NCBI GenBank assembly: GCA_947034885.2
Contig: OX344750.2
Span: 5,766,001-5,830,000, forward strand
Origin: Thuidium tamariscinum
Lineage: Eukaryota > Streptophyta > Bryopsida > Hypnales > Thuidiaceae
Length of the DNA stretch: 64,000 nt
Direction of reading: 5' to 3'
How positions within the stretch are numbered: position 1 is the stretch's first letter; the number at the start of each line of letters is the position of its first letter. A program made the translations under genes and the position numbers. Shown here piece after piece: positions 1 through 41,200 of the stretch. The notes under the pieces are model-generated. The model worked only from the letters and a program-made list of their open reading frames with translations, had not been told where the DNA came from and did not search any database.

Positions 1-1029
1 GGAAAAATGTACCAAGGAAGCGTCGAATTTCACGAGAGTGAACAAATGCCTCAACCTGTCCCTCCGGGAAACTCTAAATGAACAACACCACGCAAACTCC
101 TAACACAGATCGGGTTCCTCGGACCCTCAGTGCTCTTAAAGATATTGCAAAACCGGTATCGTCGATGATGCGAACAAGCACACAAGCACGGTTCCACAAG
201 GTGAATGCCCGATCTTGAAAAAACCCTCTTGCCTGCAATGTGCACCTGCTGATTGTAAAGCTACCTTGGAGGCCCCCCCGAGTCGCGAAAATATCCGCCC
301 CTCCGCCAGATTGCTCCTCGATGCCGACTGCACTGCCGGAGAGCTGTCCATGCACTGGCCCATGTCCGGAGGGCTCTCAATCCTCTCCATCGCAAAGGCT
401 CAACCGACGCCACGGAAGGGCCCCGCGAAGCCAGTTCTGTCTACGTTTGCACAAGCAATCTGATTTTGTAGTCCAAAGAGTGCGCGTCAAATCCTTCCTC
501 ACGGCGACGATTCGAGCCTCGGCTCGGCAATCCAGTCCTGAACCGCCCCCGCTGAAATGTCCACAGCTTTGTGTCGAAGAATTCGTTTGAGGCCGAGCTG
601 GTGTCTCGCATCAACACATCATGCGGGAGCCCGCAATCCGGAGGGTTCTGGCCAGTGTCACGCAATTTGAAACTCGTCGGAACCCAGACCACCTCTCTGA
701 CCTAAAAACAAATAATTGCGCTTCACCGGTCTCCGACACCCTAAACCGATCCACGACCACCTCCCTCGTGTCGGGAAGAAGCCATGCGACATCTCAACCA
801 CAAGCACACCAATCGTGCGCGGACCCTGCAAGGGAGATCCGCGAGGAAACTGCCGATCCGACACGGATTCTCGGAGCAAGGGAGAAAGGAAGGGACGGAC
901 CTTGGCGAGCGTCATCTGAGGAAGTCCCGCGCCCTGGAAGAACCCCACCGCCTCCTGCCCGCTGATGCGCCCATCCTTGTCCAGATCCGCTCGCCGGAAG
1001 AAGGAGTCGAACACCTCCGCATTGGCCAT
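1..1029 (-). CDS. EH1/Pan1 (TPLATE complex) second copy, 5' part only
   Basis: Mirror copy of the 5' end of the complete gene at 38295-46118. The start codon is at 1029-1027 and exon 1 is 901-1029 (43 codons), containing the first EF-hand loop of EH domain 1. A GT donor follows at 900-899, and the rest down to base 1 is intron 1. The window ends before the exon 2 that the other copy has, so whether this is a full second gene or a truncated 5' fragment cannot be told. Exon 1 is identical to the other copy. The two copies point away from each other with their promoters toward the palindrome centre. Confidence 0.85.
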
Positions 1030-2094
1030 GGCCGCCTACTGCTGCGGAACGACTGGCCGGCTACCACCTGAAAACGGAAGAGGCAGAGATGAGTGCGATC
1101 CGATTCGCGCAAGCCGCCGGCACAGAGGCGGAACCGCGCAGAAATTGCACGGTTGGAGAAGGAAACCCTAGCGGGCACGAAACGACGGAGAGGGTGGGAT
1201 GGACGGCACGACGGAACACGCACGGGTCGATTGCTGCCGGTACCCTAGAAAATGCGTGAGACGAGGGATGAGAGGAAGATCACGATGGCACAGGAGAACG
1301 GGAAAGCGTTGCGAATGAGGTAGCGTCCGTCCACCAACGCCCTCGACCAGCAGCAACGACCAAAACAGCGACAGCGACAACGAGGGAGTTGCACCGTGTG
1401 GATGCTGCGCCACGGAATGCGAAGAGGAGTGCCGGAGCAGAAGAAGCGACGATGCAATTGAAGGCGAAGAACGCATCGTACCTGGTCGATTGGCTGGGCG
1501 AGGGAGAGAAATTCGTGCCTCCTCGCTCATCGCAATCACTCCGCAGCGGCAGCGGCAACGACAACGACATCGAATCACGAGAAACGTCGACCTGGCGAGA
1601 GTGCGACTGAAGACGCGAAGGCGCGGAAGACGGAATCCAGCCAGCGAGCCTGCCTGCAGGCTCATCATTGTATCCTACGAGTATGTATCTCGGGGAATAC
1701 GTTGAGCCAACGTACCGTAGCATTCAGTACTAACAAGTGTGAAAAAGATTAACCCCTTAACGCCAGCAGCGCCAATTCGTGGCTTTTGGATGACCGGAAG
1801 GTGATCTGGACGGAGACGGAAAGCATTTTTTCATCCAGTTTTGGCTTGTTGGCCTTTCATGGAGGGTTATGAAGGGTAAAGCCTACCTTGTTATTGAGTT
1901 TGTAGTCTTGTTGGTGTTTGTTTTCACATGAATGAGGAGTTAGTAAGAGAAACAGATCTCAAAATATGCCATTTTAGTGTATTAGGGGAGGTTGCTACTT
2001 TTTGCTCTAAATCTGAAATTTCTCCACAAAAATGATGTTTTTTGAATTTGAGCCCAACTTACATAGTGATAGTGAAGTTCATCTCCTAGAGTTT
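1030..2094. promoter_or_regulatory. Upstream region of the left EH1 copy
   Basis: Mirror of 37230-38294. The part next to the gene (to about 1720) is GC-rich with runs of CGACAACGACA-like units. A telo-box-like AAACCCTA lies at about 1163-1170, roughly 135 bp upstream of the start codon. Beyond about 1740 the sequence turns AT-rich. Several open frames here are low in complexity (Arg/Cys alternation) and I do not call them genes. Confidence 0.5.
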
Positions 2095-2758
2095 CAGTCA
2101 GACCTCAATAAGTGTTAGGGGTTGGGAGCATACTTTTAGTTAACACATAGACACTAGTAACACATAACACTTATAAAGGGTGATGCCGATGATTTGTAAC
2201 ACTTATAAAAAATAACACTTAGAAGAATTAAAAAGGTAAATACACAAGATTTATAGAAAAAATGGATGAAATTACAAAATATTGATTCATTATTCATCTA
2301 AGTCCGTCGAAAGAATGAATCAATAGTACTTTGGTGAGTTTTTGCTACATGCCAAGATTCTACTTCTTTTTCTAGTGCTTCAATATTCCTAATAGATAAC
2401 ATGGTGTCATTAGGTCTTTGCTCCAAAAACTTCTTCAAAGTTTGAAGAGCACTACCTACATCTTGAAAGCCTACAACCTCTTCTACTATATAGTTTCTAG
2501 AATGGACATCTAGAGTCACTTTGCAACTAGAAACTATTACTTTACCTCAGAAGTATCTCCCAAATTATCTCCCCCCAAGCAATGGCTCTTATGAAAAGCC
2601 TTTTTTTGGAAACTTATCACTTACCAAGGTAAAATTAACAAAGTCGGGAGCGCGACATTGCATAACACTTCACACATAACACTTACTAGTCTTAATTTTA
2701 AGGGAGCGGAAATCTCCATAACACATATAGAGTTTTAACACTTATCGAGGTTTGACTG
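2095..2758 (-). mobile_element. pogo/Lemi-like DNA transposon, internally deleted (left copy)
   Basis: Mirror of 36566-37229. The ends are 23-bp inverted repeats starting CAGTCAGACCTC on one side and CAGTCAAACCTC on the other. CAGT-ACCTC ends are typical of pogo/Tigger/Emigrant-Lemi elements of the Tc1/mariner superfamily. The only coding remnant is a 73-codon frame at 2298-2519 (-), described with the right-hand copy. Internal copies of AAGTGTTATGTGT-like motifs lie inside both ends. Confidence 0.75.
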
Positions 2759-4449
2759 TACTCCAATTCCAATTTTGAAAAAATCCCCAAAACTCAAATT
2801 TTTATTGCCATTTGAACTTTAGATGTATTTTCAATGTCTATCAAATTCTAATTATAAAATGACATGGAAATTGAGTTTATACCATATGCACAGGTCAAAT
2901 TTGGCAACTTGTTGCCAAAATATTTTAATTTTAAAATTTTGACAACTCAACAACTTGCTTTCCTTTTCTTGGATTTCAACACTTTGTTCTTTCTACTTTT
3001 TCAACACTTCCAATTTTAGATTATTTTTTTCTATTAATGTGTAATAATTTATAAAATTTTAGACATGTTCAAAATTTTCTCTAGTTATTTCCAAAACTAG
3101 CCTACATACATAGTACACATACAATGGTGTTGGTTAGCATAGTATACACACATGGTGAAATTTTTAGTTTATTTGAAGTAATTTTTCATTTGATGTTTGA
3201 TGTAATTTTTCTTCATTTTTTCTTCAAAATTCTCAAAAAAATCAATTCTCAAAAAAAAGGTCTAAAATTTTTGTGATGTACTAAAGACATGTAATTTTAT
3301 TTTTGAAAAATAAATTAAAAAATTTTCATTCATATTTAGTTCAAAAATGGCAACAAATTGGGTGATAGGCAATGGATTTTAAATCAATGGTTGTAGGTTT
3401 GTCTTTCAAGGGTTCATAAGCAATTTATTCATGGCAATTTAGAAAACAAGAGTTGGAGACACCTTTGATTTACTACCCTACATGAGGGGCAAATTCAAAC
3501 ATAAACAAAATATTTTTTGAAATGTCCAAAGTTTTTGAAATATTATGAATGAAATGTCCAAAAAAATGCAAAAAATTTTCTTCCATATTGCCTAATTTTT
3601 GGAATACTTTAAAATTTTGTAAAAAATTTCAAAGGGTAACATTTTCAAATATAAAACTCTAGAATTTTCATGTGCTCTATCCTTTGGAATAGAGACCATG
3701 GCATTTACTATGGATTTTAGAGCTCTATTTCTAAATCTTATCTACAACCCTATTAAGACTATACAATGACGTGAGCAAACCTTTGCTTGGTTCAAAGGGG
3801 GTTACCTTTGCGAATCCCATTTTAGTCAAGGCTGCCTAGGCTCACTCCTCCTTTGACAAGGGGGCCATTCTAGAGAGACTTTTGGCTAGCTAAGGGGGCC
3901 ACTAAAGCAAACCCGACTAGCTGCAAAGGGCTATCCTAGACAAATCCCTAGCTAGCCAAGGGAAGTTGTTTAGAATATATCCCTAGTTGTTCTTTTAATT
4001 TTTTAATTTTCAAATATTGAGTAATTAATTAATTGAATTTAAAATTTAAAATAATAATAATTTTATTTAATTTAAAAATTTTGGACTTTGGATTTCAAAT
4101 AATAATTGAATACTTAATTAAATTAAAAAAATTTATTAGATGCATTGATTTGAATGTCCTGTGTTTAGGTTCAAAGTAGCCACTTTTGGTTCAAGAAGGC
4201 CATTTCATTGATTTTGATTTAACGATTTTAACCTTTGAAAGACCAACTTGCTAAATTTGACAACATGACAATTTCAAGTAAGTAAGTGTGACTAGAGATT
4301 TCTATATTTTGGGTCTAAACTTTAATAGGAGGGGACAAGGAATATCTTTCATGTGTACTAAAAAATAGGACATCTGAAAATATGAGTAAAAAATTATGGC
4401 CTAATTTTCCTCATAAATGGACAGTTTGGGAGATCCAAAAACAAAAATT
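2759..4449. other. AT-rich stretch with one short G/C-rich degenerate repeat
   Basis: No gene seen. From about 3770 to 3990 a more GC-rich island holds roughly five loose copies of a 40-50 bp unit built around AAGGGGGCCA and CTAGCTAGCC. The rest is A/T homopolymer-rich DNA. The mirror copy is at 34875-36565. Confidence 0.55.
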
Positions 4450-7126
4450 TGAAATTGATATTCTTCATGTATATACTCAAGGGTAGCTTTGAATCATTCC
4501 ATTTTGATCAATGAGTCAAAAATTGCAAGGATTTTTTGTTTGCAAGTAGTTACGATGGAAACACCCAAAATCGTCCAAATAAGGAATTTTGCGTAATTGG
4601 AGGCAATTTTTTCTAGTATTAGTGAGTGAAAATCATGAATATTGAAAAAAATAGATTTTTTGGATGTCGTATGTAATTTCTATGATTTTCCAAAGTGTTG
4701 GCTCTCTAGACCACTGAAATTGTTCAGTGGATGCTCCTGAATCTGAACTTTGCTAAAATCAATAGTGAGCCAAATTAGATTTTAGTATGTGTCCTTAATA
4801 TGCATTAGCAAATAAAAATCAAGCATTTGGCAAACACATTAACTGCAATTTAGGAATGGTTTTGGATGAATTTAGGGTCCAATGCAAGGTACAAGTGTGG
4901 GATTGGGTGTTTCTCCCTTATGAATAATCTAAAATAAACTTTGAAGTCCTTTATTTTATTCAATTTTTAGTATTTTTTGAAAAAATTAAATTGTAGGATG
5001 TAAATTGTTTATTATAACATTGCAACCATTGGGATTGGCATTTTTCAACTCCATAAATAACACCTATAGGTTTTTGACTCTATTTTTGCCAAAAATGTTC
5101 GAAATTGCCCTTTCTAATACAAATGCCAATTTTTTTTTCAAAACATTTTAGACACATGTGACCATAGGATCTTATAGTATTTTGGTGTGAAAAGATGTGA
5201 AAAAAATTTCAGAAATTTTCACCATGTATATTGCAAGATATTAGCATTTGAATTAAGAAAAATCATTTTTTTAACCCCTATGAAAAAACAGGCAACTACA
5301 CTTCACAAGCTCATTTTTGTATGAAAAAATGTCCAAAATGGTAGTGTGTCTTTGGATTCATTCTTCAAATCAAGTTGGATACGTGTTGGATACATGCTTG
5401 AAAATTTTTAGACCATTTGAAATCATAAAACATATAGGAAAAAGTAGTAAATAGAAAGAAGTAGAGAATGATTCAAAATACTAAATTGTTAAAATTAAAA
5501 AATGCCAACTCCAACGGTTACAATATTGTAATAATCAATATTTTTTTATTTTTTTCAAAAATATTGAAAATTGAGTAAAATAAAGGACTTCAAAGTTTAT
5601 TTTAGGGTAGAGATTCCATAAGTGCCCACAAACTAAAACTCTTCATAACTTTTGACTCATTGATCAAAATAGAATGATTCAAAGCTTTCAATATACATAT
5701 AGATCTAAAGAACCAATTTCAAATTTTTATTTCTTCAAAAAATGATTTTTTTCAACTGTCCAAGCTACCCGGGCTCAAAAGAAAACTACATATTATACAA
5801 TAATTTTTCAACCCCTAAGCACTCAAACAACCATTTTTGGTCATTGCCTGACTTAGGGCAAAAATTTTGGGCGAAAATGAATACTTTTTTCAATTTATTT
5901 ATTCTATTGTTTTGAAAAAACTGGATTGCCTTTCAATACTTGTATTCAAAACTAGGATTGATACAGTCAAACAAAAATTATACGTGAAATACCATAAAAT
6001 GTTTAGAATTGCCTAGTGTTGAATAATTTATTATTGTAGAAAGTTTTGATGCTCTCATTACTAGATCTTTTTCATGTATTCTCAAATTAATAAAAAACAC
6101 AATTTTGATTAATTAAAAAAAATTCACATACCAAAGATAGAAATTGTATTTTAGGTGAATTTTTGAAGTTATATCTTCAAAATTCATTTGAAGAGAATCT
6201 AAAAATAATTTTATAATTTTGACCATAAGGATCTTTTCTACATTTTGTACTTTATACAATCATCTTTGATGCTAACTTCAAAAAAATTATAGAACTTATA
6301 TTTTATAATGCATTTGTGTTTTGTCCTAACTCCTTAGGCTTTTAGGGGTTAACCATTAAGTCAAAAGTTATGCAAATTGTTACGCCTTAAAGCTACTCTT
6401 CAACTACATGTTGTGTGAAAAATTTAGAGAAACAAGATGAAAATTACACTCGTAGTGAGCTACCCAAAAAATCTATGTTTCTAAAAAACATGCCTTGGGA
6501 CTTTAGGGGATAAATTCTTAACAATTTTGTACTTTGACTCATTTGCTACTTTTTCCTACTTACTATTTTTTTCCTATATATTGTTCAATTTCAAAGAGTT
6601 TGAAACTTTTTAGGTAGGTACTTTATTTGGCTTCAACAATGAATCCAAAGAAGCACAACCGTTTTGGACCAATTTTTATATGATTGTTGCCTTTTGAAGT
6701 GAAATTGCCTTTTTCTTTTGTAGGGTGAAAAAAACTATTTTTGAGCACTCAAATGCTAATATCTTGCAATCTACACGGTGGAGAACTCAACTAATGTTCG
6801 TGTGTGAGTATGAAAATGGAAGCATTCTTAACAATTTTGTATTTTGACTCATTTACTACTTTTTCCTATTTACTAATTTTTCCTATATATTATACAATTC
6901 CAAAAGATTTGAAACTTTTTAAGCAGGTGCTTTATTTGGCTTCAACAATCCAACAAAGCACAACCATTTTGGACCAATTTTTGTATAATTGTTGCCTTTT
7001 GGAGTAAAATTGCCTTTTTTTTGGTAGGATGAAAAAACTATTTTTGAGCACTCAAATGCTACTATCTTGCAATCTACATGGTGGAAAATTCAACGATGTT
7101 AGTGTGTGAGTATGAAAATGGAAGCA
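4450..7126. repeat. R1 repeat family tract (left copy)
   Basis: AT-rich dispersed repeat. About 4450-5750 is itself an imperfect foldback: segments around 4490 and 4930-5070 reappear inverted around 5480-5720. Blocks match the single-copy side: 4551-4915 resembles 58571-58985 (shared AAACACCCAAAA and CGTCCAAATAAGGAATT). A direct duplication of about 310 bp lies at 6515-6824 and 6825-7126, about 10% diverged. The mirror copy is at 32198-34874. No protein domain is recognisable, so it is a non-coding element or a very old one. Confidence 0.7.
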
Positions 7127-9577
7127 TGTGAGCTTTGAGTATGCATACAAGTAGATATACAACAATCTATATTATAAATACCTATACCATAGTTATATAA
7201 TCTTCTTAGTTCATGGTCTCACATCGTTGTATTGCAAATGCAAACATTACGTAAAAATATGTATATGTGTTATTTTAGTGAATTTTGATCATTATAAAGT
7301 AGTAAGAAAAATAACATCATTTAAAGTGCCTTTGCGGTGATGCTTTCTCATCGTCGTGACATGCAAACTATAAAGAAGGAGGTTCATTTAAGAACTTCAT
7401 TGATTTTGATGTTGTTTTTCTTTGCTTTTCACTCTAAATTACAATGTGTCAAATTGGAGGGGGGGTTTTGAGTCTCAAGGTAAAAAATCTCAAACAAAGC
7501 GTGAATTTGAGTTTTCTTTGTTGCAATTGCCGGATTAACTTCTATTGTCATTGAGTCTTTTATTGTCAATTGATCAATCACTAGATGAAGTTGAGCCATC
7601 TTGACCGCCAAAGCAACCTTGCGTGAAAGAATAATGATATGAAAATCTTCAACGTGACACTCAACTATTAATAATATTGTTTTAAGTTGGATGCGTTGAG
7701 TTTGACAACTATGAAGTGACGTTTCAAAAATGTTTTGAAGGTCTACACGGCGATCAATATTATTGTATGGTTAGGTCTATAAAGAAAAGTCATGATCACT
7801 AATGATGGTTAAAGGGATTAGTCGATTGTGGGTGCTCTATTCTCACCCTTAGAATAAAGTGTACACAACTAGGTTTTACTATTTTTGTGAACAAATCCTA
7901 ATGGATGTTTAACCTATGTGGAATCCACTTACGCCTTCTAAGCAATGGATCTTGCTAATTTTCCTACTCCTAATTGGTTCACTTTACAATTGCTTGTTTG
8001 AAATAATCACTTACTAAGGTTTTGGCTGGTTTTGATGATAATAGTCCACACTAAGGCCTACTATAATGGCGATCAAGGAAAAAGAAAACTAGATTAAGTT
8101 GTAGAACTCATTTCACTCTTTTCAAAATGATGAATATTTCTAAGTTTGACCTAATTCCCTAGCGGATAACTATAGATGAAGTTTGACTACAAAAACTAAC
8201 CTCTAAAATTTCATCTATTGATTGCAAATGTTCTAATTATCGGAATTGAGTGTTTGTTTTTCTATTATTTTTTATTTTTAATCTCTACTGGAGCTAAAGT
8301 TTAACTTGATTTGGTCAACTCTAGTTGACTTTCATCCAAGTGATCACTACTTTTGGCTAAAACTTCATTCTACTCTAACTCCTTCACAATTTGATCAATT
8401 TGTAAATAAATTTGGGGTTTTGAGCTTTAAGATATTTTCTCTAAGATTATATTCCTAACTTGTCTTTTGGTTTCCTTTTGACCTAGTTGGTGAATTGTTA
8501 ACCAATTCTTACTAATTTGATGAAAAATCCAAAAGGTGAATTGAGTTTTATCTTAAAAAAAGTTTGATTTTACCTTTCCAAAAGTAAAAATCTTAAACTT
8601 TGACTTTTGGATAAATGTAGATTTTTATGGTAAATTTTGACCATTGACCGGTTCATCAAGATTTACCTACTAATTACTTTCCTTTAAAAATACTTTTGTA
8701 TTTTGACTTTTACTTCTACTTTCAATCAAAATTCTAAATTCCTTGTCAAAATTACTTCAAAATAAATTCTAATTTATCATCCAATTTGTGGATAATATTG
8801 TCCGATTATAACTTCTAAGATTCTTGTCCAATTTTTGGGCTTAATATTATTTTGAAAAGCTAATTAAATTAACTAACTACTTCTATTTCTAATTTTGTGA
8901 ACTCCTACTAGTTGTAGTGTATGATTTCAAATCAAATTTCAACAACTAAAGGCTAATTTTAATTCTAATGAAACTATAGAAAAAATTGAAAAGGAAGGGA
9001 AATTCACAAACTTACCTCCATCATGACTACTTTGAGATCTTCGTGTACTCCCAAGACTTCTCCACAATGCGCCAATTCCACTTCCATTTCGACAATTTCG
9101 TATTTACATGTCGTGTTTGGCACACTCATGCAATATCTTGGTCTTTTTGTATTTTCCTTCCCGATTGTCACTTCTTTTTTTTCTATTTATTTTTGGATTT
9201 AAAAAAAAATTATAATTTTCTTTTTTTCCAATGGTTTTCAGAGTCAAAACATGTAAAAATTCCAATATAATTTAATTTCAAGATTAATTGCTAAATGGCT
9301 TCTAAAGTCAAATCCCACTACAACTAAGTTCTTCAAACCTTTTTTTCATTTAGCAGCCCCTAAAACTTCCCAAAAGTCAAACTATTTTTTTCTTTGTTTT
9401 TTTCTATTTGTCTTTTTTATCGAGCTTAAACATGATGCAAAAGTCAATGATTCTCTACTTGAGGCCTAACCTCTCTTCCCTAATACCAATACTTGTATGC
9501 CATACCAACTTCTATACTCACTTAATGAACTAGTAGTTGAAAGTTTGTTAGTTACTGGCTTAAATGCAATTGTGCTG
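7127..9577. other. AT-rich non-coding stretch, nothing assignable
   Basis: I see no conserved gene, tRNA or terminal repeat. The longest frames are 60-94 codons, rich in Phe/Ile/Lys as expected by chance in AT-rich DNA. The mirror copy is at 29747-32197. Confidence 0.5.
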
Positions 9578-9828
9578 AGAGCATCTCCACAGCTGACTCG
9601 CCAAACAATTCAAAATTAGACCCTTTGGAGGGTGTTGGAATTTTGGCCGTGTCGTGTGAGAGAGGTTTGCCCCACAGCTAATCAGTGAAGACAACCCTCG
9701 AAAAGGAACAAACACTCCTACCAAAGTTTCCAATTTTTTTTGTTTTAAATTTGAATACCAAAAAATCTGGTTTTCTATTGTTTGAACTCTCTTTCTCTTA
9801 CCATAAAAAGAACTCAAAATGATTTGAA

Positions 9829-10087
9829 TTTGCAATTGCACAAGGTTCCTTATATCCCCATGGGGTGGTGGGAGGAGCCCCAACCCATAAGGGATAATTA
9901 TATGATTTTCAACAAGTTGAAACTAAGAATCCAAATTTAAAATTTTGAAAAAAATTTCATTAAAAATTTTGAAAAATTTAAAATTTAAATTCTTAGTTCC
10001 AACTTGTTGGAAATCATACATCCCTCGTGGGTTGGGGCTCTTCCCACCACCCCATGGGGATACAAGGAACCTTGTGCAATTGCAAAC
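9829..10087. repeat. Hairpin H1 (left copy)
   Basis: Imperfect palindrome centred at 9958 with arms of about 125 bp. Both arms contain GCAATTGCACAAGGTTCC, CCCCATGGGG and AGCCCCAACCCA, with only scattered mismatches. The mirror copy is at 29237-29495. Confidence 0.9.
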
Positions 10088-10147
10088 TCACTTCTTCCTC
10101 CATTCACTTCATGTGGATGGAGGAAGGTATGTGTTTTCATGAGGAGT

Positions 10148-10305
10148 GGAGCTCACTACATCCTCTTGGAGTGGAAGAAGGTGTCCCAATCCATGTGGGA
10201 CAAATGTGAGTATGAACTTGAAGGAACTCCTTCAAGTTCATACTCACATTTGTCCCACATGGATTGGGACACCTTCTCCCACTCCAAGAGGATATAGTGA
10301 GTTCT
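10148..10305. repeat. Hairpin H2 (left copy)
   Basis: Near-perfect palindrome with arms 10148-10225 and 10228-10305 and a two-base loop. Arms include TCCTCTTGGAGTGG and TGTCCCAATCCATGTGGGAC. Frames through it read well only because of the palindrome; they are not genes. A transcript would fold into a stem of nearly 80 bp. The mirror copy is at 29019-29176. Confidence 0.93.
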
Positions 10306-13093
10306 ATTTCTCACATAGAAATTCAAGCCAAGTCTCATTTTCTGTGAGTGAAATTGCTTTTTAGCATTTCATTTAAAAAAAAAAATTCAAATTGGAGGGA
10401 CAGCTGGGATGTCAACCCCGATTTTTAGGTGCAAAATATAGTCAACCTCATGTTATCTAGGTTTTGCAATTCCACAAAACCCAGGAAACAATAGTATAGG
10501 GATTCTTCGTTTTAGGGAAAGGTTAAATCAGTCTAACGTTTTGTGACTAAAAGTCAGTTACAAATAGATCTATGTTTACAAATTTAGGATAATATTATAG
10601 CACTCTTATTCCAATGTATAAAATTTGTTGGCCAGTCCATTACCAAAGTATGTATAAAGTCCCAGTCCTATATAGTGTTCTAAGGGATGTCAAATCATTC
10701 TTTGTCCAATAAATCAGGTTTGGTTAAATGAATCTTATATGATGCATGCTCTAGGACTTAGTCATAACACAATAGTATTTATAAAATAATACACATAATT
10801 CATTAATTATACCTTTTTATGTTTAGGTCAAATTTGTCCAATCAATCTACAACTAATTTGATTCATGCAAGTATGACTAGCGTTTCCGTAGTCTATGTCA
10901 AATGAGTCTCAGTTGCAATGTATGATGATGTCAAATATTTCTTATTTCTGGTGGTTTCACCAAATTATGTCAAATGAGTCCAAACCACATTATTAATCTT
11001 TGAAAATATACAAAACATACATTGGAACATTTTGAAATTTGAACCAAATATGTAGAACCTCTGACCAATCACAATTTATTCTAATATAATTTTGAAATCA
11101 AGAAACTTGGGAACAATCAATTTCTAACATACAAATCCAATGACCAAGACTTAAACGAACACTTTTAACCAACCATGCCAATATAACAATTACATATGGA
11201 TCAAGCATAAAACTTATAAATCACATAATAATTACTTCTAAATAAACAAATAAACAAAAATAAATAAAAAACAACAAAGATCTAAATCATAGCTTAACAA
11301 CAAACATATGTATATATATTAAAATTAATAATAATTAAATTAATAAAAATAAAAATAAAAACAAAAAAAACAGGGACCTAACCAACTGCCACAACCTAGC
11401 TAATCAACCCAGCTTAATTAGATCTGTAAACGCTGAAATTTGGTCAAAGGACCTATAACCAAAAATTGCATCCCCTATGGCCGTGTGAAAGGACCCAAAA
11501 CCGTGGGTCAAATCCCTAATTCGACCTCAAGCAGCTCGTCGAAGAAGTTTGCAGACTACTGCAATCGCAATTTCTCATAGATTGGATGAATTTCAATATC
11601 GATTTCTCAACTTGACCCAATTTATTGATTCAATCCATCAATGTGATCATCACAATCCCCACACAATTGGATTCAAGAAAATTTCAAGAATTTGATGATT
11701 CGGTGGAGTGGCCACAGTTGCCGTGCTGTCTGCTTTGAAAATTTGATCCAGTTTCATCAATTTGGCAATTTCAATCGGACAATTTGATCCTCACGGCTCA
11801 TGCGCACTCAGTTTCGACGAGGTGTTTGCACAATTGGATTCAAAAATTGCTCCGATCGGAGGGAAACAATCCAAAATTCGAAAATCTCCATAGCACCAGA
11901 TGTAGCGACGAAATTTTGCAACGGATTTTGATACCAATTTGTCAATTGAGCCTTATTTCAATCTCTCAAGCCTGAGGTTCACAATTGACTAAGCAATCAG
12001 TGAAAATTGAAATAAAGAATTCTCGATTTTGATTCTGTACCTGGCAGGCTGGTGTTTTGATCTCAGGCTCCTCAGCGCTCCTTCCCGCTCCAACCTTCCA
12101 ATCTTTACTACTCTTGATTCATCACGTCCTTTGCACCCACAATTGTGCTTCCAACTGCAAGTTCTCAATTCTCCGTTCCAGCTTTGAATGCTGACTTCGA
12201 TTCTTGTTCACAATGTTTGGACATTGATCACGCTTCTCGTTCGATCAGGCTCAAAACTCCACTGTAATCAGTCAATGCTCTCCCCAATGACTAAAATTGC
12301 TCGCTCAACTACTGCCCAATCAACCGCGCCTTATCCAGTGTTCCATGTAAATTTAGATTCAAATTTTTTTGACATTTAAAATTTTACTGATCTCACAGGG
12401 TGCACCCAAGCTTCACGAATCACAAACACCACTTCCCGCGTCCATGAACAGACAAACAAGTAGTGCCGCCTTATTTCCCTCAAATGTTTTTTTTTAATTA
12501 TTTGATTTTTATTCACAGACTCAATGAATTTATACGACTCTCACAAAACAATAATAATAATCAATATAGCTCACAACACAACCATGCAATTTGCAACATA
12601 CAAAAACATACACGACAATAAATTTATATATAAATAATATGGGTCTTACAATTGCCGTAGGATTTCAATTTTTTAATCTATTTATAGGCTTAGAAAATGA
12701 GGTGTCACACCTCTTGGGAAGGGGTGAGACCTCATTCATACCCCATTCATCCCTATTTATTTTTTTATTTTTTTCATCCATCTATCCTACTAGCTCTATT
12801 TACACTTCGAACTAGTTTTAGACTTAAAATTATTTTTATTTCTATTTTTTAACACTAAAGGGGCCCTAATTAGTCTTTTTTTAAATTTAACCATTATTCC
12901 AAAAAACTTATAGGTCTACACCTTCGTTCGCGGGCGCGGCCAACCACCCTCCATTTGGCCGTGTACTCACTAAATTTGGCTGTGGCCGGTCAAATTTTGA
13001 GCTGAATTATGCATGCCGTGGGGAAAAGATTTTAACCTGGCCCACCCTGATAGCCAGTGTGCGCCTTTTGGTGAGCAGCAGTGGAGATGCTCT

Positions 13094-16639: not shown

Positions 16640-16700
16640 GGGGCCCAGCCACGGGTATATAAGGGCCCCCCTCGAGGTTGCTAGTACCCTTATTTCTCGC
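16640..16700 (+). promoter_or_regulatory. TATA-box promoter inside the LTR-like element
   Basis: GGGTATATAAGGGCCCCCC is flanked by GC-rich sequence in otherwise AT-rich DNA. Transcription would be expected to start about 30 bp downstream near 16685, running rightward into the palindrome spacer. This is inferred from the motif. Confidence 0.5.
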
Positions 16701-17299: not shown

Positions 17300-17530
17300 A
17301 GCCAGACAGTTAGCCAGTTCGGAGAGAAGGCAGTCACCTACTTCGGAGAGCCCAGGCAGCCGGGAGTGACGGGGCAGCCCGGGGGGTCCCCCCAACCGCG
17401 CCTCGCCACGTGGCACGGCCACGGCGGGGGGAAGGGGCCGGCAACGGGCCGGCAGTCAACAGTTCGGAGAGAAGGCAGTAGCCAGTTCGGAGAGCCAGGC
17501 AGTCAACCAGTTCGGAGAGCAGGCAGACAG
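17300..17530. repeat. GC-rich TTCGGAGAG repeat in the LTR-like element
   Basis: About five spaced copies of TTCGGAGAG, mostly preceded by CCAG or CAACAG and followed by a GGCAG unit. They surround a very GC-rich core (17370-17450) unlike anything else in the palindrome. Confidence 0.75.
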
Positions 17531-19603: not shown

Positions 19604-19632
19604 TTTGGCATTATGTTTTTCTATTCTTTTCC

Positions 19633-20049: not shown

Positions 20050-20052
<3 letters not shown>

Positions 20053-29018: not shown

Positions 29019-29176
29019 AGAACTCACTATATCCTCTTGGAGTGGGAGAAGGTGTCCCAATCCATGTGGGACAAATGTGAGTATGAACTTGAAGGAGTTC
29101 CTTCAAGTTCATACTCACATTTGTCCCACATGGATTGGGACACCTTCTTCCACTCCAAGAGGATGTAGTGAGCTCC
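29019..29176. repeat. Hairpin H2 (right copy)
   Basis: Mirror of 10148-10305; near-perfect palindrome with arms of about 78 bp. Confidence 0.93.
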
Positions 29177-29236
29177 ACTCCTCATGAAAACACATACCTT
29201 CCTCCATCCACATGAAGTGAATGGAGGAAGAAGTGA

Positions 29237-29495
29237 GTTTGCAATTGCACAAGGTTCCTTGTATCCCCATGGGGTGGTGGGAAGAGCCCCAACCCACGAG
29301 GGATGTATGATTTCCAACAAGTTGGAACTAAGAATTTAAATTTTAAATTTTTCAAAATTTTTAATGAAATTTTTTTCAAAATTTTAAATTTGGATTCTTA
29401 GTTTCAACTTGTTGAAAATCATATAATTATCCCTTATGGGTTGGGGCTCCTCCCACCACCCCATGGGGATATAAGGAACCTTGTGCAATTGCAAA
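29237..29495. repeat. Hairpin H1 (right copy)
   Basis: Mirror of 9829-10087; imperfect palindrome with arms of about 125 bp. Confidence 0.9.
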
Positions 29496-29746
29496 TTCAA
29501 ATCATTTTGAGTTCTTTTTATGGTAAGAGAAAGAGAGTTCAAACAATAGAAAACTAGATTTTTTGGTATTCAAATTTAAAACAAAAAAAATTGGAAACTT
29601 TGGTAGGAGTGTTTGTTCCTTTTCGAGGGTTGTCTTCACTGATTAGCTGTGGGGCAAACCTCTCTCACACGACACGGCCAAAATTCCAACACCCTCCAAA
29701 GGGTCTAATTTTGAATTGTTTGGCGAGTCAGCTGTGGAGATGCTCT

Positions 29747-32197
29747 CAGCACAATTGCATTTAAGCCAGTAACTAACAAACTTTCAACTACTAGTTCATT
29801 AAGTGAGTATAGAAGTTGGTATGGCATACAAGTATTGGTATTAGGGAAGAGAGGTTAGGCCTCAAGTAGAGAATCATTGACTTTTGCATCATGTTTAAGC
29901 TCGATAAAAAAGACAAATAGAAAAAAACAAAGAAAAAAATAGTTTGACTTTTGGGAAGTTTTAGGGGCTGCTAAATGAAAAAAAGGTTTGAAGAACTTAG
30001 TTGTAGTGGGATTTGACTTTAGAAGCCATTTAGCAATTAATCTTGAAATTAAATTATATTGGAATTTTTACATGTTTTGACTCTGAAAACCATTGGAAAA
30101 AAAGAAAATTATAATTTTTTTTTAAATCCAAAAATAAATAGAAAAAAAAGAAGTGACAATCGGGAAGGAAAATACAAAAAGACCAAGATATTGCATGAGT
30201 GTGCCAAACACGACATGTAAATACGAAATTGTCGAAATGGAAGTGGAATTGGCGCATTGTGGAGAAGTCTTGGGAGTACACGAAGATCTCAAAGTAGTCA
30301 TGATGGAGGTAAGTTTGTGAATTTCCCTTCCTTTTCAATTTTTTCTATAGTTTCATTAGAATTAAAATTAGCCTTTAGTTGTTGAAATTTGATTTGAAAT
30401 CATACACTACAACTAGTAGGAGTTCACAAAATTAGAAATAGAAGTAGTTAGTTAATTTAATTAGCTTTTCAAAATAATATTAAGCCCAAAAATTGGACAA
30501 GAATCTTAGAAGTTATAATCGGACAATATTATCCACAAATTGGATGATAAATTAGAATTTATTTTGAAGTAATTTTGACAAGGAATTTAGAATTTTGATT
30601 GAAAGTAGAAGTAAAAGTCAAAATACAAAAGTATTTTTAAAGGAAAGTAATTAGTAGGTAAATCTTGATGAACCGGTCAATGGTCAAAATTTACCATAAA
30701 AATCTACATTTATCCAAAAGTCAAAGTTTAAGATTTTTACTTTTGGAAAGGTAAAATCAAACTTTTTTTAAGATAAAACTCAATTCACCTTTTGGATTTT
30801 TCATCAAATTAGTAAGAATTGGTTAACAATTCACCAACTAGGTCAAAAGGAAACCAAAAGACAAGTTAGGAATATAATCTTAGAGAAAATATCTTAAAGC
30901 TCAAAACCCCAAATTTATTTACAAATTGATCAAATTGTGAAGGAGTTAGAGTAGAATGAAGTTTTAGCCAAAAGTAGTGATCACTTGGATGAAAGTCAAC
31001 TAGAGTTGACCAAATCAAGTTAAACTTTAGCTCCAGTAGAGATTAAAAATAAAAAATAATAGAAAAACAAACACTCAATTCCGATAATTAGAACATTTGC
31101 AATCAATAGATGAAATTTTAGAGGTTAGTTTTTGTAGTCAAACTTCATCTATAGTTATCCGCTAGGGAATTAGGTCAAACTTAGAAATATTCATCATTTT
31201 GAAAAGAGTGAAATGAGTTCTACAACTTAATCTAGTTTTCTTTTTCCTTGATCGCCATTATAGTAGGCCTTAGTGTGGACTATTATCATCAAAACCAGCC
31301 AAAACCTTAGTAAGTGATTATTTCAAACAAGCAATTGTAAAGTGAACCAATTAGGAGTAGGAAAATTAGCAAGATCCATTGCTTAGAAGGCGTAAGTGGA
31401 TTCCACATAGGTTAAACATCCATTAGGATTTGTTCACAAAAATAGTAAAACCTAGTTGTGTACACTTTATTCTAAGGGTGAGAATAGAGCACCCACAATC
31501 GACTAATCCCTTTAACCATCATTAGTGATCATGACTTTTCTTTATAGACCTAACCATACAATAATATTGATCGCCGTGTAGACCTTCAAAACATTTTTGA
31601 AACGTCACTTCATAGTTGTCAAACTCAACGCATCCAACTTAAAACAATATTATTAATAGTTGAGTGTCACGTTGAAGATTTTCATATCATTATTCTTTCA
31701 CGCAAGGTTGCTTTGGCGGTCAAGATGGCTCAACTTCATCTAGTGATTGATCAATTGACAATAAAAGACTCAATGACAATAGAAGTTAATCCGGCAATTG
31801 CAACAAAGAAAACTCAAATTCACGCTTTGTTTGAGATTTTTTACCTTGAGACTCAAAACCCCCCCTCCAATTTGACACATTGTAATTTAGAGTGAAAAGC
31901 AAAGAAAAACAACATCAAAATCAATGAAGTTCTTAAATGAACCTCCTTCTTTATAGTTTGCATGTCACGACGATGAGAAAGCATCACCGCAAAGGCACTT
32001 TAAATGATGTTATTTTTCTTACTACTTTATAATGATCAAAATTCACTAAAATAACACATATACATATTTTTACGTAATGTTTGCATTTGCAATACAACGA
32101 TGTGAGACCATGAACTAAGAAGATTATATAACTATGGTATAGGTATTTATAATATAGATTGTTGTATATCTACTTGTATGCATACTCAAAGCTCACA
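29747..32197. other. AT-rich non-coding stretch (mirror of 7127-9577)
   Basis: Nothing assignable. A 60-codon frame at 31713-31895 has a somewhat protein-like composition but no known motif. Confidence 0.5.
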
Positions 32198-34874
32198 TGC
32201 TTCCATTTTCATACTCACACACTAACATCGTTGAATTTTCCACCATGTAGATTGCAAGATAGTAGCATTTGAGTGCTCAAAAATAGTTTTTTCATCCTAC
32301 CAAAAAAAAGGCAATTTTACTCCAAAAGGCAACAATTATACAAAAATTGGTCCAAAATGGTTGTGCTTTGTTGGATTGTTGAAGCCAAATAAAGCACCTG
32401 CTTAAAAAGTTTCAAATCTTTTGGAATTGTATAATATATAGGAAAAATTAGTAAATAGGAAAAAGTAGTAAATGAGTCAAAATACAAAATTGTTAAGAAT
32501 GCTTCCATTTTCATACTCACACACGAACATTAGTTGAGTTCTCCACCGTGTAGATTGCAAGATATTAGCATTTGAGTGCTCAAAAATAGTTTTTTTCACC
32601 CTACAAAAGAAAAAGGCAATTTCACTTCAAAAGGCAACAATCATATAAAAATTGGTCCAAAACGGTTGTGCTTCTTTGGATTCATTGTTGAAGCCAAATA
32701 AAGTACCTACCTAAAAAGTTTCAAACTCTTTGAAATTGAACAATATATAGGAAAAAAATAGTAAGTAGGAAAAAGTAGCAAATGAGTCAAAGTACAAAAT
32801 TGTTAAGAATTTATCCCCTAAAGTCCCAAGGCATGTTTTTTAGAAACATAGATTTTTTGGGTAGCTCACTACGAGTGTAATTTTCATCTTGTTTCTCTAA
32901 ATTTTTCACACAACATGTAGTTGAAGAGTAGCTTTAAGGCGTAACAATTTGCATAACTTTTGACTTAATGGTTAACCCCTAAAAGCCTAAGGAGTTAGGA
33001 CAAAACACAAATGCATTATAAAATATAAGTTCTATAATTTTTTTGAAGTTAGCATCAAAGATGATTGTATAAAGTACAAAATGTAGAAAAGATCCTTATG
33101 GTCAAAATTATAAAATTATTTTTAGATTCTCTTCAAATGAATTTTGAAGATATAACTTCAAAAATTCACCTAAAATACAATTTCTATCTTTGGTATGTGA
33201 ATTTTTTTTAATTAATCAAAATTGTGTTTTTTATTAATTTGAGAATACATGAAAAAGATCTAGTAATGAGAGCATCAAAACTTTCTACAATAATAAATTA
33301 TTCAACACTAGGCAATTCTAAACATTTTATGGTATTTCACGTATAATTTTTGTTTGACTGTATCAATCCTAGTTTTGAATACAAGTATTGAAAGGCAATC
33401 CAGTTTTTTCAAAACAATAGAATAAATAAATTGAAAAAAGTATTCATTTTCGCCCAAAATTTTTGCCCTAAGTCAGGCAATGACCAAAAATGGTTGTTTG
33501 AGTGCTTAGGGGTTGAAAAATTATTGTATAATATGTAGTTTTCTTTTGAGCCCGGGTAGCTTGGACAGTTGAAAAAAATCATTTTTTGAAGAAATAAAAA
33601 TTTGAAATTGGTTCTTTAGATCTATATGTATATTGAAAGCTTTGAATCATTCTATTTTGATCAATGAGTCAAAAGTTATGAAGAGTTTTAGTTTGTGGGC
33701 ACTTATGGAATCTCTACCCTAAAATAAACTTTGAAGTCCTTTATTTTACTCAATTTTCAATATTTTTGAAAAAAATAAAAAAATATTGATTATTACAATA
33801 TTGTAACCGTTGGAGTTGGCATTTTTTAATTTTAACAATTTAGTATTTTGAATCATTCTCTACTTCTTTCTATTTACTACTTTTTCCTATATGTTTTATG
33901 ATTTCAAATGGTCTAAAAATTTTCAAGCATGTATCCAACACGTATCCAACTTGATTTGAAGAATGAATCCAAAGACACACTACCATTTTGGACATTTTTT
34001 CATACAAAAATGAGCTTGTGAAGTGTAGTTGCCTGTTTTTTCATAGGGGTTAAAAAAATGATTTTTCTTAATTCAAATGCTAATATCTTGCAATATACAT
34101 GGTGAAAATTTCTGAAATTTTTTTCACATCTTTTCACACCAAAATACTATAAGATCCTATGGTCACATGTGTCTAAAATGTTTTGAAAAAAAAATTGGCA
34201 TTTGTATTAGAAAGGGCAATTTCGAACATTTTTGGCAAAAATAGAGTCAAAAACCTATAGGTGTTATTTATGGAGTTGAAAAATGCCAATCCCAATGGTT
34301 GCAATGTTATAATAAACAATTTACATCCTACAATTTAATTTTTTCAAAAAATACTAAAAATTGAATAAAATAAAGGACTTCAAAGTTTATTTTAGATTAT
34401 TCATAAGGGAGAAACACCCAATCCCACACTTGTACCTTGCATTGGACCCTAAATTCATCCAAAACCATTCCTAAATTGCAGTTAATGTGTTTGCCAAATG
34501 CTTGATTTTTATTTGCTAATGCATATTAAGGACACATACTAAAATCTAATTTGGCTCACTATTGATTTTAGCAAAGTTCAGATTCAGGAGCATCCACTGA
34601 ACAATTTCAGTGGTCTAGAGAGCCAACACTTTGGAAAATCATAGAAATTACATACGACATCCAAAAAATCTATTTTTTTCAATATTCATGATTTTCACTC
34701 ACTAATACTAGAAAAAATTGCCTCCAATTACGCAAAATTCCTTATTTGGACGATTTTGGGTGTTTCCATCGTAACTACTTGCAAACAAAAAATCCTTGCA
34801 ATTTTTGACTCATTGATCAAAATGGAATGATTCAAAGCTACCCTTGAGTATATACATGAAGAATATCAATTTCA
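32198..34874. repeat. R1 repeat family tract (right copy)
   Basis: Mirror of 4450-7126. In this orientation 32815-34050 resembles 57655-58390 in the single-copy region, for example GTATTTTGAATCATT and TACTTCTTTCTATT near 33845 and 58205, so the family exists outside the palindrome. Confidence 0.7.
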
Positions 34875-36565
34875 AATTTTTGTTTTTGGATCTCCCAAAC
34901 TGTCCATTTATGAGGAAAATTAGGCCATAATTTTTTACTCATATTTTCAGATGTCCTATTTTTTAGTACACATGAAAGATATTCCTTGTCCCCTCCTATT
35001 AAAGTTTAGACCCAAAATATAGAAATCTCTAGTCACACTTACTTACTTGAAATTGTCATGTTGTCAAATTTAGCAAGTTGGTCTTTCAAAGGTTAAAATC
35101 GTTAAATCAAAATCAATGAAATGGCCTTCTTGAACCAAAAGTGGCTACTTTGAACCTAAACACAGGACATTCAAATCAATGCATCTAATAAATTTTTTTA
35201 ATTTAATTAAGTATTCAATTATTATTTGAAATCCAAAGTCCAAAATTTTTAAATTAAATAAAATTATTATTATTTTAAATTTTAAATTCAATTAATTAAT
35301 TACTCAATATTTGAAAATTAAAAAATTAAAAGAACAACTAGGGATATATTCTAAACAACTTCCCTTGGCTAGCTAGGGATTTGTCTAGGATAGCCCTTTG
35401 CAGCTAGTCGGGTTTGCTTTAGTGGCCCCCTTAGCTAGCCAAAAGTCTCTCTAGAATGGCCCCCTTGTCAAAGGAGGAGTGAGCCTAGGCAGCCTTGACT
35501 AAAATGGGATTCGCAAAGGTAACCCCCTTTGAACCAAGCAAAGGTTTGCTCACGTCATTGTATAGTCTTAATAGGGTTGTAGATAAGATTTAGAAATAGA
35601 GCTCTAAAATCCATAGTAAATGCCATGGTCTCTATTCCAAAGGATAGAGCACATGAAAATTCTAGAGTTTTATATTTGAAAATGTTACCCTTTGAAATTT
35701 TTTACAAAATTTTAAAGTATTCCAAAAATTAGGCAATATGGAAGAAAATTTTTTGCATTTTTTTGGACATTTCATTCATAATATTTCAAAAACTTTGGAC
35801 ATTTCAAAAAATATTTTGTTTATGTTTGAATTTGCCCCTCATGTAGGGTAGTAAATCAAAGGTGTCTCCAACTCTTGTTTTCTAAATTGCCATGAATAAA
35901 TTGCTTATGAACCCTTGAAAGACAAACCTACAACCATTGATTTAAAATCCATTGCCTATCACCCAATTTGTTGCCATTTTTGAACTAAATATGAATGAAA
36001 ATTTTTTAATTTATTTTTCAAAAATAAAATTACATGTCTTTAGTACATCACAAAAATTTTAGACCTTTTTTTTGAGAATTGATTTTTTTGAGAATTTTGA
36101 AGAAAAAATGAAGAAAAATTACATCAAACATCAAATGAAAAATTACTTCAAATAAACTAAAAATTTCACCATGTGTGTATACTATGCTAACCAACACCAT
36201 TGTATGTGTACTATGTATGTAGGCTAGTTTTGGAAATAACTAGAGAAAATTTTGAACATGTCTAAAATTTTATAAATTATTACACATTAATAGAAAAAAA
36301 TAATCTAAAATTGGAAGTGTTGAAAAAGTAGAAAGAACAAAGTGTTGAAATCCAAGAAAAGGAAAGCAAGTTGTTGAGTTGTCAAAATTTTAAAATTAAA
36401 ATATTTTGGCAACAAGTTGCCAAATTTGACCTGTGCATATGGTATAAACTCAATTTCCATGTCATTTTATAATTAGAATTTGATAGACATTGAAAATACA
36501 TCTAAAGTTCAAATGGCAATAAAAATTTGAGTTTTGGGGATTTTTTCAAAATTGGAATTGGAGTA
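34875..36565. other. AT-rich stretch (mirror of 2759-4449)
   Basis: Contains the GC-rich degenerate repeat at about 35334-35554; nothing else recognised. Confidence 0.55.
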
Positions 36566-37229
36566 CAGTCAAACCTCGATAAGTGTTAAAACTCTATATG
36601 TGTTATGGAGATTTCCGCTCCCTTAAAATTAAGACTAGTAAGTGTTATGTGTGAAGTGTTATGCAATGTCGCGCTCCCGACTTTGTTAATTTTACCTTGG
36701 TAAGTGATAAGTTTCCAAAAAAAGGCTTTTCATAAGAGCCATTGCTTGGGGGGAGATAATTTGGGAGATACTTCTGAGGTAAAGTAATAGTTTCTAGTTG
36801 CAAAGTGACTCTAGATGTCCATTCTAGAAACTATATAGTAGAAGAGGTTGTAGGCTTTCAAGATGTAGGTAGTGCTCTTCAAACTTTGAAGAAGTTTTTG
36901 GAGCAAAGACCTAATGACACCATGTTATCTATTAGGAATATTGAAGCACTAGAAAAAGAAGTAGAATCTTGGCATGTAGCAAAAACTCACCAAAGTACTA
37001 TTGATTCATTCTTTCGACGGACTTAGATGAATAATGAATCAATATTTTGTAATTTCATCCATTTTTTCTATAAATCTTGTGTATTTACCTTTTTAATTCT
37101 TCTAAGTGTTATTTTTTATAAGTGTTACAAATCATCGGCATCACCCTTTATAAGTGTTATGTGTTACTAGTGTCTATGTGTTAACTAAAAGTATGCTCCC
37201 AACCCCTAACACTTATTGAGGTCTGACTG
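36566..37229 (+). mobile_element. pogo/Lemi-like DNA transposon, internally deleted (right copy)
   Basis: Inverted ends of 23 bp (CAGTCAAACCTCGATAAGTG at the left; inverse of CAGTCAGACCTCAATAAGTG at the right). The left flank is TA, the target dinucleotide of this superfamily; the right flank reads AA. At 36805-37026 a 73-codon frame ends with HQSTIDSFFRRT after a Leu/Glu-rich helix (LQTLKKFLEQR), resembling the C-terminal tail of pogo/Tigger-type transposases, which often end in TxxSFF. The DDE core and the DNA-binding domain are absent, so the 664-bp element is non-autonomous and would need a transposase supplied in trans. Confidence 0.75.
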
Positions 37230-38294
37230 AAACTCTAGGAGATGAACTTCACTATCACTATGTAAGTTGGGCTCAAATTCAAAAAACATCATTTTTGTGG
37301 AGAAATTTCAGATTTAGAGCAAAAAGTAGCAACCTCCCCTAATACACTAAAATGGCATATTTTGAGATCTGTTTCTCTTACTAACTCCTCATTCATGTGA
37401 AAACAAACACCAACAAGACTACAAACTCAATAACAAGGTAGGCTTTACCCTTCATAACCCTCCATGAAAGGCCAACAAGCCAAAACTGGATGAAAAAATG
37501 CTTTCCGTCTCCGTCCAGATCACCTTCCGGTCATCCAAAAGCCACGAATTGGCGCTGCTGGCGTTAAGGGGTTAATCTTTTTCACACTTGTTAGTACTGA
37601 ATGCTACGGTACGTTGGCTCAACGTATTCCCCGAGATACATACTCGTAGGATACAATGATGAGCCTGCAGGCAGGCTCGCTGGCTGGATTCCGTCTTCCG
37701 CGCCTTCGCGTCTTCAGTCGCACTCTCGCCAGGTCGACGTTTCTCGTGATTCGATGTCGTTGTCGTTGCCGCTGCCGCTGCGGAGTGATTGCGATGAGCG
37801 AGGAGGCACGAATTTCTCTCCCTCGCCCAGCCAATCGACCAGGTACGATGCGTTCTTCGCCTTCAATTGCATCGTCGCTTCTTCTGCTCCGGCACTCCTC
37901 TTCGCATTCCGTGGCGCAGCATCCACACGGTGCAACTCCCTCGTTGTCGCTGTCGCTGTTTTGGTCGTTGCTGCTGGTCGAGGGCGTTGGTGGACGGACG
38001 CTACCTCATTCGCAACGCTTTCCCGTTCTCCTGTGCCATCGTGATCTTCCTCTCATCCCTCGTCTCACGCATTTTCTAGGGTACCGGCAGCAATCGACCC
38101 GTGCGTGTTCCGTCGTGCCGTCCATCCCACCCTCTCCGTCGTTTCGTGCCCGCTAGGGTTTCCTTCTCCAACCGTGCAATTTCTGCGCGGTTCCGCCTCT
38201 GTGCCGGCGGCTTGCGCGAATCGGATCGCACTCATCTCTGCCTCTTCCGTTTTCAGGTGGTAGCCGGCCAGTCGTTCCGCAGCAGTAGGCGGCC
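37230..38294 (+). promoter_or_regulatory. Upstream region of the complete EH1/Pan1 gene
   Basis: AT-rich to about 37600, then GC-rich. A telo-box in inverse orientation (TAGGGTTT) lies at about 38154-38161, and TTTTCAG at 38250-38256 could be the acceptor of a 5'-UTR intron. No clear TATA box. It is duplicated in the left arm, so both EH1 copies share the same proximal promoter. Confidence 0.5.
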
Positions 38295-41200
38295 ATGGCC
38301 AATGCGGAGGTGTTCGACTCCTTCTTCCGGCGAGCGGATCTGGACAAGGATGGGCGCATCAGCGGGCAGGAGGCGGTGGGGTTCTTCCAGGGCGCGGGAC
38401 TTCCTCAGATGACGCTCGCCAAGGTCCGTCCCTTCCTTTCTCCCTTGCTCCGAGAATCCGTGTCGGATCGGCAGTTTCCTCGCGGATCTCCCTTGCAGGG
38501 TCCGCGCACGATTGGTGTGCTTGTGGTTGAGATGTCGCATGGCTTCTTCCCGACACGAGGGAGGTGGTCGTGGATCGGTTTAGGGTGTCGGAGACCGGTG
38601 AAGCGCAATTATTTGTTTTTAGGTCAGAGAGGTGGTCTGGGTTCCGACGAGTTTCAAATTGCGTGACACTGGCCAGAACCCTCCGGATTGCGGGCTCCCG
38701 CATGATGTGTTGATGCGAGACACCAGCTCGGCCTCAAACGAATTCTTCGACACAAAGCTGTGGACATTTCAGCGGGGGCGGTTCAGGACTGGATTGCCGA
38801 GCCGAGGCTCGAATCGTCGCCGTGAGGAAGGATTTGACGCGCACTCTTTGGACTACAAAATCAGATTGCTTGTGCAAACGTAGACAGAACTGGCTTCGCG
38901 GGGCCCTTCCGTGGCGTCGGTTGAGCCTTTGCGATGGAGAGGATTGAGAGCCCTCCGGACATGGGCCAGTGCATGGACAGCTCTCCGGCAGTGCAGTCGG
39001 CATCGAGGAGCAATCTGGCGGAGGGGCGGATATTTTCGCGACTCGGGGGGGCCTCCAAGGTAGCTTTACAATCAGCAGGTGCACATTGCAGGCAAGAGGG
39101 TTTTTTCAAGATCGGGCATTCACCTTGTGGAACCGTGCTTGTGTGCTTGTTCGCATCATCGACGATACCGGTTTTGCAATATCTTTAAGAGCACTGAGGG
39201 TCCGAGGAACCCGATCTGTGTTAGGAGTTTGCGTGGTGTTGTTCATTTAGAGTTTCCCGGAGGGACAGGTTGAGGCATTTGTTCACTCTCGTGAAATTCG
39301 ACGCTTCCTTGGTACATTTTTCCGTGGACAGTAATCAGAGTGAGGCAGGGAGAGCCCTGGAAACCAGGTGTTAGATGTCCGGATCGAACGTTTGGTAGGT
39401 GCTTACTACGATGGCTCTTCCTTCTGGCGAGGGTCCAGGCTTCACTGAAGAAGTTGACGTCTCCCTCTGGACTGGACGTGGCCCTTTCGGCATTTCCTGG
39501 ATTGGTTCTGTAGCTCTTCCTGAAGAGCAGCGAACGTGAGTCCCACATTGGGATTGATGGAGGGTTGGATGGACCCATTGCAGTAAGCGCACGGCACTAG
39601 TGCCACATGGTCACGTGGTCGTGGTCGAGGTCGGGTTGTGATGTCGTGGCTTGTGTGTGGAACGTGTTTGCGGGACTGAGGTGTTTGTGGGGTGCTTCAG
39701 ATATGGCAATTTGCCGATCAGGGACGGACCGGTTTCTTGTCGCGAGTGGAGTTCTACAACGCGTTGAAGCTGGTGACGGTGGCCCAAACCGGGAGGGAGA
39801 TCACTCCCGAGCTGGTTCGGGCGGCGTTGACGGGTCCCGCCGCGGCCCAGATCCCTCCCCCTCGAATCAACAGTCCTGCGGGGCAAGCCAGCGGAGGCAA
39901 TGGAGCATCTGCAGCGGCAGCGAGTTCGCAGGGGCCTGTTCCGGTGCAAAGTGCGGGTCCTCCACCGGCTCAGGGCGTGGCCGGCGTGCAGGGTAGCAAC
40001 GGTGGTGCTAGCGCCAGGCCAGCGGGCGTGCAGGGCAACGGTTCAGCCGGTCCCCAGGGGGCGCCTGATGGGGCTCCCGCGAAGCAGTTCTCCCCGCAGA
40101 CGAACAGTGCGCCCAGTGCCCCGATCGCCCAAGGCGGACACGGAGGTCCCGCGAAGCAGCTGGCTCCGCAGACGAACAGTCTGTCGGCGGGCGGTTCGGG
40201 AGTTCCGCAGCTGACGTCCCAGACGAGCAGCCTGTCGCGGTACCCTCCGTCCGCGGGTCAGGTGCAGGTGGCTCCCACGGGATTCTCCCAGCAGGGTTGG
40301 GCCAGGCCTCCTGCCGCAGGCGGCCAACCCGTGCGACCGTCGCTGGGGAGTTTATTTACCACGAACTCGTCCTGGCCGGCGAAGGAGTCGAATCCTCCTC
40401 CTAGGACAAGCCAAGAACGTGGATCCAGCGGCGGGTCGACGGGCCCCAGCCCCGTGATGACGACCCCGAGCTCGGGTCAATCCAGGCCCGTGACGCCCGC
40501 TTCTGCGGCGTCGATGGCGAGCAATGCGAATGCGGGATCCTTGACGGCGACGACAGGCCAGGGACCGGCGACGAATGAGAGGCCTGCGGAAGCAGGGTTC
40601 AATGGCGGGGTGGACCTGTTCAGCGGCGGTTTCAAGGCCAGTGCTACGAGTGGTGCGGTGAGCAGTGCGGCGGGATCCGTTTCGGGCGTGGACGTTTTCT
40701 CGGGGAGCCAAGCTCCGAAGGCTGCCGCTTCCGGGCCACCTCCGGGCCAGTCCAAGCCGGGTGCTCCTGTCGCTGCTGCTGCTGCCGCCGGGGTGAAGCA
40801 GCTGGACGAATCCTTATTCAGCGGTCCTGCAGTTCCGTTCATGCAAACTCCGGCGCAAGCGGGTGGGAGAGGTCCTGATGGCGGTGCCATCCCTCCGGGT
40901 CGGGGTCCCTCTGGCAGTGGTTCGATGAGTCTGGGGCCCGGATCCGGGGCGAGGTCGCAGGGCGGTCCCGTGATGGGGGCGTCGTGGCCCCAAATGTCCG
41001 GAAACGACGTGGAGAGGTACAGCCGAGTGTTCACGAAGGTGGACACGGACAAGGACGGGAAGATCACGGGGGAGCAAGCCCGAGAGCTTTTCCTGAGTTG
41101 GCAACTTCCGCGAGGTAGTGTGGATGGCCATGTTGCGAGTGTTTTGGGCGTGGGGGGCATGTTGGTGCATTCGGACATGGTTGGCTGATGTGTTTCGGTG

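Follow-up and report, generated by a model that had tools for sequence, protein, structure and literature searches.

A large palindrome, probably from a plant nuclear genome, with a sharp change in arm identity at a solo-LTR-like insertion

The 64-kb stretch of DNA that we analyzed (hereafter the window; it contains no N) carries a large palindrome whose outer arms are nearly identical up to an insertion in the left arm, whereas the inner arms, between that insertion and the spacer, have diverged. The reading that we prefer, at a probability of about 0.45, takes the structure as a genuine large palindrome that probably belongs to a plant nuclear genome and whose outer arms are homogenized by gene conversion as far as the insertion.

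The palindrome is confirmed in the sequence. Base i is complementary to base 39324-i over i = 1 to 15093, with two exceptions (9769/29555 and 13481/25843), and BLAST aligned the outer arms (1-15093 against 39323-24231) with 99.987% identity, two mismatches, and no gaps (E-value 0.0). Toward the center, a second pair of inverted arms follows another register (coordinate sum 43108) and aligns over 737 bp with 97.15% identity and no gaps (E-value 0.0); its mismatches comprise 13 transitions and 8 transversions, and it looks older than the outer pair. Based on these E-values, a chance origin of either pair is excluded. When the insertion is subtracted, the arm measures at least 15,823 bp, given that its outer end coincides with the window edge at base 1. 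The structure is thus a palindrome in the sense of two long inverted arms with >99% identity (15,093 bp of outer arm) around a short spacer, with a further 737 bp of less similar inner arm.

The original prediction described near-identical arms with a constant coordinate sum of 39324 and only isolated mismatches, separated by a 3.9-kb spacer. This description holds for the outer 15,093 bp, with their two mismatches, but not for the inner pair, which keeps its own sum; the diverged inner segments that it also mentioned are present, with 21 mismatches in 737 bp. The spacer length is correct (3,893 bp) only after the inner pair is counted as arm and the insertion is set aside, as in the record 9,137 bp separate the two outer arms. 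The predicted junctions match those of our reanalysis to within about one base.

Table 1. Positions of the palindrome components and of the gene copies in its arms
Feature	Position in window	Strand	Remarks
Left outer arm	1..15093	+	Reverse complement of 24231-39323; may extend past the window edge
Target-site duplication GAATG, left copy	15088..15092	+	Read from sequence
Solo-LTR-like insertion, left arm only	15093..18871	+	3,779 bp; ends TGTGAGC...GCTCACA (TG...CA)
Target-site duplication GAATG, right copy	18872..18876	+	Read from sequence
Left inner arm, diverged	18871..19607	+	97.15% identity to 23501-24237
Spacer	19608..23500	.	3,893 bp
Right inner arm, diverged	23501..24237	-	97.15% identity to 18871-19607
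Empty insertion site, single GAATG	24232..24236	-	Right arm reads straight through
Right outer arm	24231..39323	-	Reverse complement of 1-15093; further mirror would fall left of base 1
AtEH1/Pan1-like first exon, left-arm copy	901..1029	-	Mirror by sum 39324; same frame within 661-1035 (-); any remainder lies left of the window
AtEH1/Pan1-like first exon, right-arm copy	38295..38423	+	Exon end at a GT donor, placed by eye

When the left half of the spacer was compared with its right half, no continuation of the arms was identified inside it; the best other inverted match is 19 bp long (E-value 0.003) and out of register. ARAGORN and Rfam both identified a tRNA-Tyr (GTA) in the spacer at 20141-20224 (-), with a long variable arm that we take to be of bacterial or plastid type, and this tRNA may be a plastid-derived fragment. 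It is adjoined by an (AT)30 run at 20053-20112. An open frame at 19636-20115 (-) has no Pfam match at E-values up to 0.1; by eye it looks like a decayed Copia-type integrase.

The insertion is solo-LTR-like in its anatomy: it has TG...CA ends, a 5-bp target-site duplication, and an empty site in the opposite arm. Self-comparison of the insertion identified no terminal direct repeats and no second LTR, only short internal repeats. In the right arm, outer and inner arm are continuous through GAATG, which is the pre-insertion state, and this empty site indicates that an uninterrupted arm preceded the insertion. A single-arm LTR-like insertion had been predicted, and the target sequence agrees, occurring twice in the left arm and once in the right. 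Visual inspection showed, near 16664 inside the insertion, a TATATAAG motif that is compatible with an LTR promoter.

A diverged relative of the insertion is found in the arms themselves (65% identity over 427 aligned positions in BLAST). This old relative occupies 24503-25262 (+), with its mirror at about 14062-14821 (-), within several hundred bases of the insertion, and the local alignment over this longer stretch scores 342 vs a best score of 91 in 60 shuffles. No match was found to run on across the border of the inner arm: all three alignments of the first 640 bp of the insertion fell short of the highest score among 60 shuffles. A search elsewhere in the window found no copy spanning the border between outer and inner arm.

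Divergence between the arms changes sharply at the insertion, from 2 mismatches in 15,093 bp (0.013%) outside it to 21 in 737 bp (2.85%) inside it (Fisher's exact test, p about 1.9e-26). Along the 15,823-bp ungapped arm, the best change-point is at index 15108, with a 95% interval of 14965-15108 that includes the insertion at 15093. Because this interval covers 0.9% of the arm, an insertion placed at random would fall within it with a chance of 0.009, in a test that is post hoc and concerns one event. The arm directly outside the insertion has no mismatch over 1,612 bp; nearness to a heterology alone therefore does not lower conversion, and any effect must be one-sided. On the inner side, mismatches are clustered beside the insertion, where the first 190 bp hold 11 of the 21 (permutation p 0.044); some of the 21 affect neighboring positions. 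Neither feature is predicted by plain drift, and the clustering is not predicted by a simple barrier either. Gene conversion between the arms, which the original prediction had raised, gains at most indirect support from the coincidence of change-point and insertion, a post hoc observation of a single event.

From these patterns we infer that the structure is physical, that its parts arose in a certain order, and that conversion produced the step. Arms of at least 15.8 kb would flank a 3.9-kb spacer and bear the 5' part of an AtEH1/Pan1-like gene head to head. The palindrome would have formed first; an LTR retrotransposon would then have entered the left arm, at a point about 737 bp short of the spacer, and would later have been reduced to a solo LTR. 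Arm-to-arm conversion would since have kept the outer arms identical as far as the heterology, while the inner segments between LTR and spacer, cut off from conversion, would have drifted apart. Repair synthesis begun in the outer arm may be usable only while homology lasts, so that tracts would stop at the 3.8-kb heterology, and the 737-bp stretch from LTR to spacer may be so short that it is rarely converted. A barrier to conversion would explain directly why the identity step coincides with the insertion. We tentatively propose, as a possibility that falls short of an even chance, that in this plant palindrome the solo LTR forms a sharp and one-sided barrier to conversion between the arms, that it released the inner arms, and that their divergence dates the insertion. 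If a plant substitution rate of 7e-9 per site and year is assumed, 2.85% would represent about 2 million years, and 0.013% about 10,000 years; the error is wide because the outer differences number only two.

An assembly artefact, the false head-to-head join of two haplotypes, is a rival that we consider less likely. In its best version, a heterozygous inversion lies between the 737-bp inverted repeats, a natural inversion site, and the shared 3.9-kb spacer was collapsed, so that the assembly passes from haplotype A, which has the LTR, to haplotype B, which lacks it, in reverse complement. In that case the two outer arms would be allelic, and two SNPs with one presence/absence difference of an LTR are an ordinary allelic contrast. 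However, the switch in divergence could coincide with the LTR site only by chance (0.009), and a haploid plant body, should that be the source, would have no alleles. The complex core between the outer arms (15093-24237) spans about 9.1 kb, which one modern long read could probably cross, and a core of this size in a window without N also argues against a false join. A simple read fold-back is not supported, given the 3,893-bp non-palindromic spacer and the insertion in one arm; the original prediction had likewise argued against this artefact, in part from the insertion.

The outer arms could instead be identical because they are young rather than through conversion, although we regard such a recent fold-back duplication as less likely still. 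An old 737-bp inverted repeat with a 3.9-kb spacer would have annealed as a single strand after a break, the non-homologous flap would have been cut back as far as the repeat, and the outer arm would have been copied by synthesis. Such an origin predicts that the inner repeat is old (97.15%), that the edge is sharp, and that the outer arms are near-identical, all as observed, and it explains both divergences as well as the barrier model does. Precedent exists in yeast, where repeats with a 5-kb spacer, or with 94% or 86% homology, are reported to have yielded inverted dimers (PMC10164571); that report thus resembles our case in that widely spaced, imperfect inverted repeats can seed such dimers. 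The background was, however, a telomere-capping mutant with long single-stranded DNA, and the products described were dicentric dimers, not a stable internal palindrome (PMC10164571). Moreover, the LTR must have entered afterward, become solo, and landed in the change-point interval by chance, again at 0.009. A transposon with terminal inverted repeats ending at 18871 and 24237 is not favored, as in the right arm the target site of the LTR lies across this boundary, and only chance could have brought the LTR to the end of the transposon. Conversion up to the insertion remains our preferred reading.

The arms carry the beginning of an AtEH1/Pan1-like gene. Translated pieces from the window (n = 10) were compared with Pfam at E-values up to 0.1; six gave matches (two EH/EF-hand, two L19e, and two glycosyl hydrolase family 1), and four gave none. 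In the right arm, the frame at 38289-38663 has EF-hand matches below the Pfam cut-offs, and the next frame, which lies beyond the mirrored part, matches AtEH1/Pan1 EH1.1 (PDB 6yeu, E-value 2.9e-20) and part of EH1.2 (PDB 6yet, E-value 1.2e-16), domain names that follow PMC8144573. The gene has a Pfam EH match (4.2e-05), and it has the two N-terminal EH domains expected of AtEH/Pan1, a subunit of the TPLATE complex; Pfam analysis of two frames downstream gave no match. The right-hand gene reaches at least about 41.1 kb, beyond the part that is mirrored in the window. The left copy points outward, and the two gene copies would therefore stand head to head.

Outside the palindrome, a ribosomal protein L19e gene at 49513-50415 (+) consists of two exons without stops and a short intron. 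Its best matches are nine chains with 337-369 bits, followed by the next at 264; we take the nine to be from plant ribosomes. Based on the AtEH1/Pan1 match and this presumed identity of the L19e matches, the source is probably a plant. A plastid inverted repeat or an extrachromosomal rDNA palindrome is not supported, as the only match above the Rfam gathering threshold in the 64 kb is a tRNA and the neighboring genes are of nuclear type (EH; L19e with an intron). A glycosyl hydrolase family 1 gene was identified by Pfam in two pieces at 60594-62264 (+); the second appears degraded by eye and is possibly a pseudogene. The G+C content per 2-kb bin is 26-39% over 2-38 kb, except for 41% at 16001-18000 (inside the insertion), and 52-63% over 38-46 kb. 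Two stretches are self-reverse-complementary, 9825-10090 (85%) and 55743-56433 (80%), and the latter has related pieces near 52.4 kb, at 57.6-58.0 kb, and in the arms; both are possibly fold-back or MITE-like elements. A short open frame at 36778-37023 (+), with its mirror at 2301-2546 (-), has no Pfam match at E-values up to 0.1 and ends in QSTIDSFF, which we take to be PIP-box-like.

If the palindrome is real, it offers a natural experiment on how far conversion reaches and where it stops, with a homogenized part and a released part split by one insertion, and it adds a probable plant palindrome that holds part of an endocytosis gene. If it is false, it illustrates how a giant palindrome could be mimicked when a heterozygous inversion is bounded by short inverted repeats. 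Among the literature matches listed, we recognized no report of an insertion-bounded identity step in a palindrome, which is no proof of absence.

A real palindrome at this locus would probably work like those of willow, mammals, and Caenorhabditis. For the W chromosome of willow (Salix purpurea), W.P1 is reported to have arms about 20 kb long, separated by a spacer given as 2.6 kb in the text and 3,586 bp in Table 2; four related arms average >99% identity, gene conversion was inferred, W.P2 has LTR retrotransposons that are missing from the opposite arm, and the authors stated in 2020 that no earlier description of such structures existed for plants (PMC7023750). Our case shares with that account a probable plant source, an LTR insertion in one arm, and arms with >99% identity; it differs in having two arms at 99.987% and a step at the insertion, whereas the willow report describes four arms, female specificity, and gene families (PMC7023750). 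Palindromes are apparently not general to plant sex regions, since the authors of a study of the W region of octoploid strawberry found no large ones there (PMC9339316). In the account of mammalian X and Y palindromes, arm identities >99% are attributed to gene conversion, and spacers are structurally unstable; arms there can exceed 1 Mb, with a median of 37 kb in 12 conserved X palindromes, and conversion was studied across species, whereas here it is only proposed (PMC8981503). Opposed gene pairs in near-perfect inverted repeats are described from Caenorhabditis, including one locus with 2,207-bp arms, a 126-bp spacer, and 99.7% identity; these arms and spacers are much shorter than ours, and their maintenance was deduced by comparing three species (PMC1803023).
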